64,000 nt of DNA from Escarpia spicata (lineage: Eukaryota; Annelida; Polychaeta; Sabellida; Siboglinidae): positions 68,043,693 through 68,107,692 of the forward strand of contig OZ023209.1 of NCBI GenBank assembly GCA_963995525.1, in the 5' to 3' direction. A program made the translations under genes and the position numbers. This document shows, piece after piece, positions 545 through 15,500 of this stretch (position 1 is its first letter; each line of letters starts with the position of its first letter). The notes beneath the pieces are model-generated. The model made no database searches. It saw nothing but the letters and a program-made list of their open reading frames with translations, and was not told the DNA's origin.

Positions 545-3500
545 GTAGGTTATCAACTCATCTGTCTCTTTAATCAGGCTTTTTTGTAATTTCTTTTCTT
601 TTTGAATGTATAAGATTTTAAGATTATATACAGCATACGTAAATAATAAAAATTTGTATTTTGTATTGTGTTTTGTTATGTAACCCATGTATTGTAATAT
701 TGCAATCACATAATGTATTCGTACTTCATGTTTTAGTTTGTAAACACCCCTGAAACTATTTGTAGATATATCTGGTGTCTAAATAGATTTGATTTCATTA
801 CACATCTCTGATGTCCTCCTGCATTTACTGGTCTGATTGCTGACAACTACCCCGGTATGTCATTTCCTTGATTATACAGTAAGCTATATTTGAAACTTCA
901 TATTAATCACTTTCTTTATCAGGTAGGTTCACTGCAATATTGGGAGATTTTCCAAGATATTAAAGTAATTGTTGATGTGTAGAGATGGACAGTCGCCATC
1001 GGTCAGAGCTGGTGGAACTACACTATTGCTCTACTTGAGTAAGATACCGTGTGAAAAGCTACTTATGTAGGTATAGGCATAAGTAGTATACGAGTGGATC
1101 TGGATAGGTATCCACAGCCCTTTTTGAGGAGTTTTGGTTGATAATAGGGAGGTTTCGAAAGCCGCCCCCCTGAGCAAAGTGCGTAGTCACGTGACCGTAT
1201 GTGTGAGCGTGTGTAGCGCCTCCTAGCGGTGGAATGAGCAGTCATGGAAGGGTTATTGTGTATATATGAGAGACTGAAGAGGGAATAACAAAAGTTCAAA
1301 GAGGAAAGGTAGTGAAAGAAACGAAAGATCAAAGAGTCATAACGAAAGATCAAAGAGAAAAGTTTTAAAAGGTGATGAAAGGTGTATAATGAGAGACAAA
1401 GAAGTAAACGGAATGATGTAATAACGAAAGAACAAAGAGAAAACGTTATGATATATATATATATATATATATATATGAAACTTTAAAATGTGTACAGGTA
1501 TGCTTGTATGTATGTATGTGTGTATGAAAGAGAGAATATATATATATATATATATATATAATATAATAACCAACAAACACCACAGTTTGAAAGTTGAATG
1601 TTTTATTGATGTCAACGAACTATGAAATCTTCAAAGCCGTCATCACTATCGTATGTCTCCTCACACCAATTTTCCATGTCCCCCATGTCGACAGGGGCAA
1701 CAGGGTCGGGGTCAAACCAAGGGTTGGGGGGGATCGTAAAGTTCCCGTGTCTGGAGCAGCTCCGCCATGACGTTGCAGAATGTATAATTGTGGTATTCGC
1801 GGAGCTCTTCGTCTCTGGAACATACATTAAAACTCTCAAACCATACGAACGAGACGTTAAATATATGAAAACTGTGAAAATATCTTCTCTGAAACATATA
1901 TGAAAAAGTTGAAAATGATCAAGCGAGTGGAATAAGGCAGCGATGTAACCAGACACCGCGTAGGGAACCGACACACGATAAAAGGGCAAGCTAGATCAAC
2001 GGACTATGATACAATACGTAATGGAGACGTCTGGTGACGCAATCGGTAACCAAACACCACGTAGCTAGTCGAAACGACAAACATTGAAGAAAATAGTAAA
2101 ATAATCGTAATCGTTGAACACTCACGTGCAATAGTCAACTAGTTTTGTTAGGTTTATATACGCAAACCCGATAGAGGCGTTATGTCTTTTCAATCACGAG
2201 ACAGTGCAAAAACACGAGAAGAGACAAGACCAGCTCAAGCACAGTACACACTAGCTGAGAAGGAGGTAAAGAAAGCCACCAAAAGAGATTTGACAAACTC
2301 AAGCACAGAAGGGAGACAGAGGAGGATAGGAAGGCAGATAAGGCGAGGGAAGAGAGGAGAGGGAGACAGAGGAGGATAGGAAGGCAGATAAGGCGAGGAA
2401 AGAGAGGAGAGGGAGACAGGAGGATAGGAAGGCAGAGAAGGCGAGGAAAGAGAGGAGAGGGAGACAGGAGATGATAGGAAGGCAGAGGAGGCGAGGGAAG
2501 AGAGGAGAGGGAGACAGAGGAAGATAAGAATACAGAGAAGGCGAGGAAAGAGAGGAGAGGGAGACAGAGGAGGATAGGAAGGCAGAGAAGGCGAGGGAAG
2601 AGAGGAGAGGGAGACAGGGGAGGATAGGAAGGCAGAGGAGGCGAGGGAAGAGAGGAGAGGGAGACAGAGGAGGATAGGAAGGTAGAGAAGGTGAGGGAAG
2701 TGAGGAGAGGGAAACGGGGAGGATAGGAAGGCAGAGAAGGCGAGGAAATACTTGGGAGGTCAAGCGTATGTCAAGCGATAAAATACAAAGTTTGCAGCAC
2801 TTACTTATTGGAGACGTATAATATTCATCTTGTCCTCGGGACATGCCTTGTCATGAGCGCTCGCCATCTTCAGCAGTCGGAGTGAAGTTGCGTTGTTCGA
2901 AGTCGGTAGAAAGTAATATGCTCCACTAGAGTTTTGTTAGGTTTATATACGCAAACCCGATAGAGGCGTTATGTCTTTTCAATCACGAGACAGTACAGAC
3001 AATGGAGTCACGAGTTGAACTCCGCTCTCTACCCGTGCTCGTTAGCGGGTGCAGTATGAGATAAGCCGCGTGACTCGACATTCACGAGAAGCCACTACGC
3101 TACGTCCATCCATACACGTGTTCCAACTTCCAACAGTTTACTTACCACAATTCTCATTCTTCAAACTGTCATATACATCTTGTGTCACAGGTGCTCATTA
3201 GCGGGTGCATTCTGTACATGGTCTAGCCTGTTACATGTCTGCCTTCCATACATGGTCTAGCTTGTTACATGTTTGCCTTCCATACACGGTCTAGCTTGTT
3301 ACATGTCTACCTTCCATACATGGTCTAGTTTGTTACATGTTTGCTGGTCTAGCCTGTTACATGTTTGCCTTTCGTACATGGTCTAGTTTGTTACATGTTG
3401 ACCTTCCATACATGGACTAGTTTGTTACATGTTTGCCTTCCATACATGGACTAGCATGTTACATGTTTGCCTTTCGTACATGGTCTAGTTTGTTACATGT

Positions 3501-12500: not shown

Positions 12501-15500
12501 GTATGGATGGACGTAGCGTAGTGGCTTCTCGTGAATGTCGAGTCACGCGGCTTATCTCATACTGCACCCGCTAACGAGCACGGGTAGAGAGCGGAGTTCA
12601 ACTCGTGACTCCATTGTCTGTACTGTCTCGTGATTGAAAAGACATAACGCCTCTATCGGGTTTGCGTATATAAACCTAACAAAACTCTAGTGGAGCATAT
12701 TACTTTCTACCGACTTCGAACAACGCAACTTCACTCCGACTGCTGAAGATGGCGAGCGCTCATGACAAGGCATGTCCCGAGGACAAGATGAATATTATAC
12801 GTCTCCAATAAGTAAGTGCTGCAAACTTTGTATTTTATTGCTTGACATACGCTTGACCTCCCAAGTATTTCCTCGCCTTCTCTGCCTTCCTATCCTCCCC
12901 GTTTCCCTCTCCTCACTTCCCTCACCTTCTCTACCTTCCTATCCTCCTCTGTCTCCCTCTCCTCTCTTCCCTCGCCTCCTCTGCCTTCCTATCCTCCCCT
13001 GTCTCCCTCTCCTCTCTTCCCTCGCCTTCTCTGCCTTCCTATCCTCCTCTGTCTCCCTCTCCTCTCTTTCCTCGCCTTCTCTGTATTCTTATCTTCCTCT
13101 GTCTCCCTCTCCTCTCTTCCCTCGCCTCCTCTGCCTTCCTATCATCTCCTGTCTCCCTCTCCTCTCTTTCCTCGCCTTCTCTGCCTTCCTATCCTCCTGT
13201 CTCCCTCTCCTCTCTTTCCTCGCCTTATCTGCCTTCCTATCCTCCTCTGTCTCCCTCTCCTCTCTTCCCTCGCCTTATCTGCCTTCCTATCCTCCTCTGT
13301 CTCCCTTCTGTGCTTGAGTTTGTCAAATCTCTTTTGGTGGCTTTCTTTACCTCCTTCTCAGCTAGTGTGTACTGTGCTTGAGCTGGTCTTGTCTCTTCTC
13401 GTGTTTTTGCACTGTCTCGTGATTGAAAAGACATAACGCCTCTATCGGGTTTGCGTATATAAACCTAACAAAACTAGTTGACTATTGCACGTGAGTGTTC
13501 AACGATTACGATTATTTTACTATTTTCTTCAATGTTTGTCGTTTCGACTAGCTACGTGGTGTTTGGTTACCGATTGCGTCACCAGACGTCTCCATTACGT
13601 ATTGTATCATAGTCCGTTGATCTAGCTTGCCCTTTTATCGTGTGTCGGTTCCCTACGCGGTGTCTGGTTACATCGCTGCCTTATTCCACTCGCTTGATCA
13701 TTTTCAACTTTTTCATATATGTTTCAGAGAAGATATTTTCACAGTTTTCATATATTTAACGTCTCGTTCGTATGGTTTGAGAGTTTTAATGTATGTTCCA
13801 GAGACGAAGAGCTCCGCGAATACCACAATTATACATTCTGCAACGTCATGGCGGAGCTGCTCCAGACACGGGAACTTTACGATCCCCCCCAACCCTTGGT
13901 TTGACCCCGACCCTGTTGCCCCTGTCGACATGGGGGACATGGAAAATTGGTGTGAGGAGACATACGATAGTGATGACGGCTTTGAAGATTTCATAGTTCG
14001 TTGACATCAATAAAACATTCAACTTTCAAACTGTGGTGTTTGTTGGTTATTATATTATATATATATATATATATATATATTCTCTCTTTCATACACACAT
14101 ACATACATACAAGCATACCTGTACACATTTTAAAGTTTCATATATATATATATATATATATATCATAACGTTTTCTCTTTGTTCTTTCGTTATTACATCA
14201 TTCCGTTTACTTCTTTGTCTCTCATTATACACCTTTCATCACCTTTTAAAACTTTTCTCTTTGATCTTTCGTTATGACTCTTTGATCTTTCGTTTCTTTC
14301 ACTACCTTTCCTCTTTGAACTTTTGTTATTCCCTCTTCAGTCTCTCATATATACACAATAACCCTTCCATGACTGCTCATTCCACCGCTAGGAGGCGCTA
14401 CACACGCTCACACATACGGTCACGTGACTACGCACTTTGCTCAGGGGGGCGGCTTTCGAAACCTCCCTATTATCAACCAAAACTCCTCAAAAAGGGCTGT
14501 GGATACCTATCCAGATCCACTCGTATACTACTGGCATACTCTCTCAAATATTCTATTTAAAGGACAGATAAAATTGTACTTGAATAAAATATAAAAGTAT
14601 GGATAATTTTGAGAAACTGTAATAAAGGATACTTAATTGCATCTGGAATATTACACATAATTATGCTTTGTTACTAGTAAAACTACAATACAATTGTGGT
14701 TCATTACACAAGTAAGACAGACATTTCTACTGCAGTAGATGTACATTGGTACATCCCGGCTCTGCTATCAGTCACTGCCAGGTTTTCAGATATGCCACAT
14801 GTAACTAGTGCACATTTTAATTGCTGCAAGAATGGTTGATTATTTCTGAATATATAAAAATCAAACTTTTATCAATTGCAGTGTAACATTAGCCACATAA
14901 TTGCTATGAAATGATTGCTATATGCAGTGGTCCTGCTTCAACTAACTAATAATAACATACAATTAACTGCATAGCATGGTTGATTTTTTAGGGTTGTTTT
15001 TGAGGCTCCCAAAAACCCTTCAACTGCACCCTGCTTGAGACCTCACAGTATACCCCCTTGAGGCTCCCCAAAGCACTCAACTACATTATGCCCTTGATAC
15101 CTCCAACTACCCCTTGATGCTCCACAGAACATTAACTACATCCCTCTTGAGACTTCCAATGTCACCCCCCTTCAGACCTCCAACTACACAGCCCTTGATG
15201 CTCCAACTGCATCCCCTTGAGACCTAATGCAGAACTGTTTTATCTTTGTGTGTATGTCCATGTGTGCCTGTGAGAGTGTGTAAGTGCATGTGTGCCTGTG
15301 AGAGAGCCTGTGAGAGTGTAAGTCCATGTGTGCCTGTGAGAGTGTGTAAGTGCATGTGTGCCTGTGAGAGAGCCTGTGAGAGTGTAAGTCCATGTGTGCC
15401 TGTGAGAGTGTGTAAGTGCATGTGTGCCTGTGAGAGTGTGTAAGTCCATGTGTGCCTGTGAGAGTGTGTAAGTCCATGTGTGCCTGTGAGAGTGTGTAAG

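Follow-up and report, generated by a model that had tools for sequence, protein, structure and literature searches.

We found that a long palindrome at positions 1082 to 14532 of the window (the whole 64,000-nucleotide stretch of Escarpia spicata DNA analysed here) belongs to a family: pairs of inverted arms or tips occur at a minimum of 26 loci in the 1.06-Gb genome. The explanation that we consider probable is that of an inserted element without a recognised gene, both ends of which copy one Polinton end; it would multiply as a parasite of that Polinton, whose protein-primed polymerase would copy it through a fold-back hairpin and whose integrase would insert it. The ends, the 6-bp duplications around them, a common terminal 1.06 kb, gene-bearing Polintons elsewhere in this genome and the pattern of the arms are all observed directly; mobilisation by Polinton enzymes is likely, judging from the ends and the duplication length.

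Structure of the palindrome

The element is 13,451 bp long and consists of two arms of about 6.7 kb around a 35-bp centre (Table 1). Aligned with its own reverse complement, it is 99.76% identical over 13,462 columns, which bears out the near-perfect palindrome described in a sequence-only reading of this DNA. Outside the centre, the arms differ by five substitutions (window positions 2777, 3213, 5466, 5809 and 7295) and a single indel of 2 bp, in an AT run at 1451. The arms are thus free of net indels from 1453 inward, and over that stretch of more than 6 kb the earlier claim holds. The unmirrored part of the element is limited to the centre. The two 34-bp satellite arrays show three mismatches and no gap between them; the sequence-only reading was silent on this satellite, as well as on the Polinton identity and on the multicopy family.

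The GGCATA that had been noticed beyond each tip is present on both sides, and the sequences outside the two copies are unlike each other, also as described. An exon at 359-543, belonging to a gene that we take to be TTC38-like, sits upstream of the palindrome, which probably lies inside a host intron.

Table 1. Features of the palindrome, in window positions.
Feature	Positions	Strand	Basis or remark
Target-site duplication GGCATA, left copy	1076-1081	.	sequence read
Left arm	1082-7789	+	self-alignment
Left tip AGTAGT, the (AGT)2 end motif of vertebrate Mavericks	1082-1087	+	PMC8097293
Outer 1,056 bp of left arm, homologous to NADAR-side Polinton end	1082-2137	+	86-90% to 4/4 sampled Polintons
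Inner left arm: 50-bp repeats, 34-bp satellite, 43-bp repeats, CATCA-type repeats	2138-7789	+	
50-bp tandem repeats, left arm	2310-2745	+	mirror at 12871-13306
34-bp satellite array, left arm, 3,159 bp	3206-6364	+	
Centre, putative loop of giant hairpin	7790-7824	.	alignment and predicted fold
Right arm	7825-14532	-	self-alignment
34-bp satellite array, right arm, 3,159 bp	9252-12410	-	
Outer ~1,054 bp of right arm, mirrored copy of the same Polinton end	13479-14532	-	alignment
Right tip ACTACT, mirrors left tip	14527-14532	-	tip comparison
Target-site duplication GGCATA, right copy	14533-14538	.	sequence read

A family with Polinton ends

The tips of both ends were read at 21 of the paired loci, and 20 of these pairs have an exact 6-bp duplication around AGTAGT...ACTACT ends. 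The motif (AGT)2//(ACT)2 is found at both ends in all copies with resolved tips (20/20). The exception is C254, where the flanks are themselves inverted duplicates and the AGTAGT tip was not found at the ends. Since an exact duplication and a shared end motif go together in 20/21 pairs, we recognise a mobile element rather than an inverted duplication made on the spot, and the single insertion of an already palindromic DNA proposed from the window is upheld. The palindrome is not a product of chance either, because further loci have the same arms, tips and axis beside different 6-bp duplications. In vertebrates, the commonest Maverick end motif is 5'-(AGT)2//(ACT)2-3', duplications are of 6 bp and the inverted repeats of intact elements measure 46-1,447 bp (PMC8097293).

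A common axis, with arms mirrored up to the same centre, is seen in 8 of the 12 copies whose centre region was read. Among the 11 fully read copies, seven kept a symmetric centre and four lost DNA at or beside it, from tens of bases up to most of one arm. On these counts, the persistence of the palindrome, which had been called notable given the instability of such structures, is less remarkable. Folding of the centre gives z = -14.3, a score to which the palindrome itself contributes part, and the predicted structure is a long stem with two small hairpins, in the shape of a T. The existence of two centre orientations, which might be taken for flip and flop forms, was given no weight, since it is explained by insertion in either direction.

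Sequence comparison supports the Polinton kinship of the palindrome ends well. In 4/4 Polintons followed, the NADAR-side end matches positions 1-1056 of the window's arm at 86-90%, and similarity stops at this point. These four were chosen, by their tips, from 14 unpaired tips, so that their likeness at the tip is a matter of selection, while the further ~0.9 kb was not so selected. The first 22 bases of every sampled Polinton tip are also found on palindromes. The Polinton at C2:25349980-25364077 (14.1 kb, flanked by CACGGA duplications) has genes for DNA_pol_B_2 and for an A32/IVa2-type ATPase, and further ORFs match other ORFs of a nested Polinton described below; the integrase is absent from this copy and is carried by the three sister copies. 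Because its opposite end, the one opposite Polinton end that was read, has just 121 bp in common with the palindrome arm, both palindrome ends would derive from one Polinton end. The best reading of the palindrome is a non-autonomous Polinton derivative. Other palindromes often match the Polinton end over a shorter stretch, with breaks or more weakly: in C4:47.8M the match covers no more than the first ~460 bp, and in C3:47.7M it is at ~70%. Between the palindromes and the two Polintons nested within palindromes, only the first six to eight tip bases are common.

Searched with ten Polinton proteins, among them polymerase, integrase and ATPase, 1082-14532 gave no match, and it is due to the lack of a polymerase B or integrase match that the palindrome is classed as a non-autonomous derivative rather than as a Polinton. 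No homology to Polinton proteins was found in the inner arm (2138-7789). Pfam gave nothing significant for one host exon and three ORFs of the arms, with no Rep-type gene seen in these ORFs, and a protein search found no homologue of the 127-aa minus-strand arm ORF at E <= 0.001. Viral contigs, a set from which records near this genome are possibly excluded, gave 0 exact matches to the 22-base tip. Among the titles and abstract openings examined, from a literature collection without most subscription papers, none announces a palindromic Polinton, and the exact phrases non-autonomous or nonautonomous Polinton or Maverick have zero occurrences in that collection.

Two palindromes harbour, within one arm, a Polinton of 16.5-16.8 kb with its own ends and its own 6-bp duplication. 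We rejected the possibility that these ~31-kb copies are autonomous versions, for which the palindrome would serve as the end, since the genes belong to the nested Polinton. For the one in C3, the empty site can be seen in the window's own arm, with a single TACGTC. The idea that the nested Polinton is older than the near-identical arms, based on its ~3% end divergence, was also rejected: the inverted repeat is about 187 bp long, with 0 and 1 differences, and the rest consists of old left-right differences common to copies. The integrase of the nested Polinton has thousands of relatives, those listed having mostly the same Pfam domains and uninformative names; no solved structure was found for its polymerase, in the part searched.

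Likeness of the arms and its possible origin

The arms appear to be renewed together: they are alike in most copies and different from copy to copy. The 40-bp tips of both ends are identical in 18/20 copies (all but C720 and C5:5.9M) despite 14 distinct tips overall, where shuffling leads one to expect a mean of 1.5 identical pairs and gave a maximum of 9 in 20,000. Satellite arrays are equal in length, with 0-3 mismatches between arms, in five of the seven copies compared; when they are compared across copies, 104-1,094 gap columns appear. Array length is unequal between arms in 3/8 uninterrupted pairs (C4:47.8M, C3:47.7M and C720). The likeness of the arms could also come from chromosomal gene conversion or from over-polishing of near-identical arms in the assembly.

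We hypothesize that a Polinton end and ~5.6 kb of repeat-rich filler were mirrored once, when a single strand folded back on itself at the GC-rich centre and copying continued around the fold. Single strands released by replication would then fold into a 6.7-kb hairpin, the open end of which has a normal Polinton origin. The arms would be equalised ahead of each insertion, as this hairpin is copied or its mismatches are repaired, and the unfolded duplex, with two good Polinton tips, would be inserted by integrase supplied in trans. We infer this cycle from the pattern of the copies, not from any replication or transposition intermediate seen. A tentative proposal, to which we give somewhat less than even chances, is a Polinton satellite living as a hairpin: a linear molecule of 6.7 kb, protein-primed at its Polinton end and closed by a T-shaped hairpin at the other, would unfold to give each inserted palindrome. 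If it is true, both arms are written from one template every generation.

Gene conversion between arms is known for chromosomal palindromes. It could have equalised the arms of a Polinton-derived palindrome after insertion, with the element travelling double-stranded and without a hairpin, and it accounts for arm identity without an unseen replication form. We nevertheless find it unlikely: at distances of 8-31 kb, the two tips still agree as far as the duplication, even in the copy whose second arm measures 0.86 kb. Conversion is also at least incomplete, since big array-length differences persist in C4:47.8M and C3:47.7M, where the outer arms are identical or nearly so. Replication suits the data better because Polintons, too, have short end repeats that agree within one copy (1 mismatch in 121 bp; 0 and 1 in about 187 bp). 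Long inverted duplications are, in turn, a known long-read artefact, produced by reading through a hairpin adaptor or by false inverted duplication in the assembly. An artefact is, however, hard to reconcile with arms that end at the same tip amid different flanks, each with a 6-bp duplication, with arms that are asymmetric in some copies or with a Polinton carrying its own duplication inside two palindromes, and we give it very little credence.

Two one-arm copies, C5:48995086 and C5:5916569, are 8-10 kb long with a second arm of about 0.86-0.92 kb, and both have good 6-bp duplications. Such copies could be ancestral, the full palindromes having grown by repeated extension of the terminal repeats, and gradual growth of this kind is described for Galileo (PMC4168063). 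However, the full palindromes have one axis at the same GC-rich centre, and the long arms of the one-arm copies stop at or just before it (arm positions 6698 and 6651), which looks like deletion from a palindrome and makes their ancestry improbable in our view. A Foldback-type transposon from a different superfamily, like P/Galileo or Mutator, with terminal repeats that grew until meeting, would find a parallel in the long Foldback-like inverted repeats of Galileo, which exceed 4 kb in one D. willistoni copy that has internal tandem repeats and no transposase gene (PMC4168063). Galileo duplications are of 7-8 bp (PMC4168063), whereas those of the palindromes are of 6 bp, with (AGT)2 ends in 20/20 resolved copies. 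Moreover, the relatives that share these ends and carry genes are Polintons, and we consider a Foldback origin extremely improbable.

Comparison with known systems

Polintons have been proposed as relatives of many large DNA viruses and, to our knowledge, their replication has never been watched directly. Mirrored derivatives with no recognised gene and with one Polinton end twice are the imprint expected of fold-back copying of a protein-primed linear DNA. The family provides at least 26 natural replicates for end copying, for arm maintenance and for the minimal DNA accepted by Polinton enzymes, and it tells us that 13-kb near-perfect palindromes can spread and persist in a genome.

The palindromes resemble Polintons/Mavericks in their AGTAGT...ACTACT ends, 6-bp duplication and inverted repeats that agree within a copy, as well as in the terminal 1.06 kb in common with gene-bearing Polintons of the same genome. 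They differ in that the inverted repeat is the whole element, with both ends apparently from one Polinton end, and in having no match to the ten protein queries. Foldback/Galileo elements are similar in their very long inverted repeats, in which tandem repeats can lie, and differ in the duplication length given above and in a P-superfamily transposase (PMC4168063), in contrast to the Polinton kin of the palindromes. The predicted T-shaped fold of the palindrome centre may be compared with the hairpin telomere of parvovirus/AAV (rolling-hairpin replication). This likeness is structural only, and the T of the palindrome is the middle of an inserted element, not an end. For adenovirus, Daniell reportedly described in 1976 that some defective DNAs are inverted duplications of the left end. 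Incomplete particles of this protein-primed virus contain DNA from one genome end (PMC5033970). The adenovirus molecules are by-products in infected cells, whereas the palindromes form a heritable inserted family. If the hairpin satellite proposed here is true, the palindromes would be a heritable counterpart of end-duplicated adenovirus defective genomes, and nature would have combined protein-primed with hairpin replication in one hybrid.

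Palindrome and its copies in the genome

The segment at window 1082-14532 matches its own reverse complement end to end in self-alignment, with five substitutions and one 2-bp indel between the two arms (~6.7 kb each); the 35 bp at the centre (7790-7824) are the only part without mirror symmetry. The near-perfect palindrome described in the sequence-only reading is thereby borne out, and the GGCATA that it had placed beyond each tip does lie directly outside both. The window corresponds to C5:68043693-68107692 of the 1.06-Gb Escarpia spicata assembly. Two parts of the window, an exon at 359-543 and, near 17,2xx, a further piece, presumably resemble TTC38; the palindrome would be intronic because it is placed between them. 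Downstream, 12 minisatellite arrays lie within window 15248-59217; their periods range from 28 to 64 bp, and several have units that match at 95-97%.

Features of the palindrome arms, one-arm copies and Polintons
Feature	Position	Length	Flanking duplication
Polinton-type end	outermost part of each arm	~1.06 kb	
50-bp repeat array	each arm, next inward from the Polinton-type end		
34-bp satellite array	each arm, inward of the 50-bp repeats	3,159 bp	
43-bp repeats, then CATCA-type repeats	each arm, inward of the satellite		
GC-rich centre	innermost, after the CATCA-type repeats		
One-arm copy	C5:48994700-49003500		
One-arm copy	C5:5916200-5926962		
C2 Polinton	C2:25349980-25364077	14.1 kb	CACGGA
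Nested Polinton	C4:40003769-40020548	16.8 kb	CATGTA
Nested Polinton	C3:36423138-36439676	16.5 kb	TACGTC

With the outer 2.9 kb as query, opposite-strand pairs of matches turned up at many loci of this genome, and the tip alone found further ones. Combined, the two queries give at least 26 loci with inverted pairs, window included, among the scored candidates (35 of 1,466 for the outer 2.9 kb and 40 of 737 for the tip). Both ends were read for 21 of the 26 pairs (all except C10:35.09M, C2:44.27M, C2:49.44M, C2:51.23M and C15:26.68M). The flanking 6 bp are the same on both sides in 20 of these 21; at C254 the flanks are themselves inverted duplicates, hence no duplication is readable, and that copy seems to be enclosed in a larger palindrome. 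The inverted flanks at C254:6341300-6354600 are identical over 352/352 bp. All 20 resolved copies start with AGTAGT and end with ACTACT. The palindrome belongs to a mobile family.

The centre is symmetric in 7 of the 11 fully read copies and asymmetric in four (C720, C3:47.7M, C5:48.99M and C5:5.9M), and mirroring reaches the same centre in 8 of the 12 copies with that region read. Both C5 copies among the four carry one full arm, stopping at or just short of the centre, and a second arm of only ~0.86-0.92 kb; they could be deletion products or an older form. The centre is predicted to fold into a long stem bearing two small hairpins (-78.9 kcal/mol; shuffled sequences average -37.0, giving z -14.3, partly due to the palindrome itself). 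The arm also carries a ~70-bp sequence (TTGTTAGGTTTATATACGCAAACCCGATAGAGG...) twice, at window 2147 and 2939, the first copy starting just beyond the end of homology to the Polinton end.

Relation to Polintons

Four of 14 partnerless tips (on C2, C12, C13 and C6) were traced inward and lead into Polintons (Mavericks), which are virus-like, gene-bearing transposons. In all four, ~1.07-1.11 kb matches window arm 1-1056 at 86-90% identity and the copy then continues into genes; as they were picked by tip, only the extension past the tip is new evidence. The opening 22 bases of every sampled Polinton tip are also found on palindromes. The match to other palindromes varies, being full length in some, confined to the first ~460 bp at C4:47.8M and at ~70% identity at C3:47.7M. 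The family is Polinton-derived, and because ten Polinton protein queries found no match in the palindrome, we regard it as non-autonomous.

Between the two ends of the C2 Polinton, the common sequence is an inverted repeat of just 121 bp, with a single mismatch. Homology to the palindrome arm extends over ~1.06 kb at the NADAR-side end of this Polinton and over 121 bp only at the opposite one. As both arms carry the 1.06-kb NADAR-side end, the palindrome represents one Polinton end plus filler, duplicated in inverted orientation; one Polinton copy was tested at both ends.

The C2 Polinton encodes DNA_pol_B_2 (Pfam, E 2.4e-10), an A32/IVa2-type ATPase, an RPA C-terminal domain and a NADAR protein, together with a weak adenovirus-protease match under the Pfam cut-off. 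Two further ORFs have matching ORFs in a nested Polinton and are, we assume, capsid proteins, a label that Pfam does not support. Integrase is absent from this copy and present in all three sampled sister copies (C12, C13, C6).

In two of the 26 pairs (C4:39.99M and C3:36.41M), a Polinton sitting in one arm widens the distance between the partners to ~31 kb. Both were selected by length, so they are not evidence of insertion preference; the empty site of the C3 insertion is visible in the window's arm. These nested Polintons have another end type, with only the first 6-8 tip bases common with the palindromes. The C4 one, whose genes were scanned, encodes an integrase with a chromodomain and an A32/IVa2-type ATPase, and its polymerase B match is slightly below the Pfam cut-off. 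Both Polinton lineages contain a gene with a NADAR domain and another with an RPA C-terminal domain (L049:941-1504 and, from the nested C4 copy, L010:2630-3103); in the C2 lineage both lie close to one end.

Arm agreement and a possible mechanism

The 40-bp tips are the same at both ends in 18 of 20 copies, even though 14 different left tips occur; when right tips were shuffled between copies, identical pairs averaged 1.5 and reached at most 9 in 20,000 trials. The tips differ at C720 by one inserted base and at C5:5.9M by one substitution, and over 50 bp the C8 tips are also unlike, in a run of G. In five copies (window, C4:31.3M, C11, C3:59.4M and C1:76.1M) the satellite arrays are equal in length between arms with 0-3 mismatches, and aligning the arrays of any two of these copies gives 104 to 1,094 gap columns. 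At C4:39.99M the left array is 2,973 bp and the right pieces around the nested Polinton total 2,989 bp. Array lengths differ by 1,938 bp at C4:47.8M (5 mismatches elsewhere) and by 1,697 bp at C3:47.7M (0 elsewhere); those of C720 are 2,813 vs 2,568 bp, with the right arm cut. The ends of the two nested Polintons are likewise alike within a copy and unlike between copies. Assembly polishing may inflate arm identity. The agreement found in most copies suggests that the two arms of a copy are renewed together.

When linear DNA is replicated by protein priming, as established for adenovirus and phage phi29, a single strand is displaced. We hypothesize that fold-back, at the GC-rich centre, of a strand derived from a Polinton end gave rise to the first palindrome. 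Once displaced, a strand of a full palindrome would form a hairpin of 6.7 kb, with a normal Polinton end as its open end. Either mismatch repair within the hairpin or synthesis that starts at the open end and proceeds round the loop would produce a duplex whose arms are alike and whose two tips integrase could use. The sequences themselves display the ends, the duplications, the Polinton kinship, the derivation from one end (in one Polinton copy) and the agreement of arms in most copies, and in this scheme we infer the trans-acting enzymes, the hairpin and the moment at which the arms become alike; gene conversion after insertion, which would also make the arms alike, is a fair rival.

Polintons are already known; what we rate as new is a Polinton satellite reduced to two mirrored copies of one end plus filler. 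Titles and abstract openings covering part of the matching literature announce no palindromic Polinton. In vertebrate Mavericks, according to PMC8097293, the commonest end motif is 5'-(AGT)2//(ACT)2-3', with 6-bp duplications, and the AGTAGT/ACTACT ends and 6-bp duplications of the palindromes agree with it.
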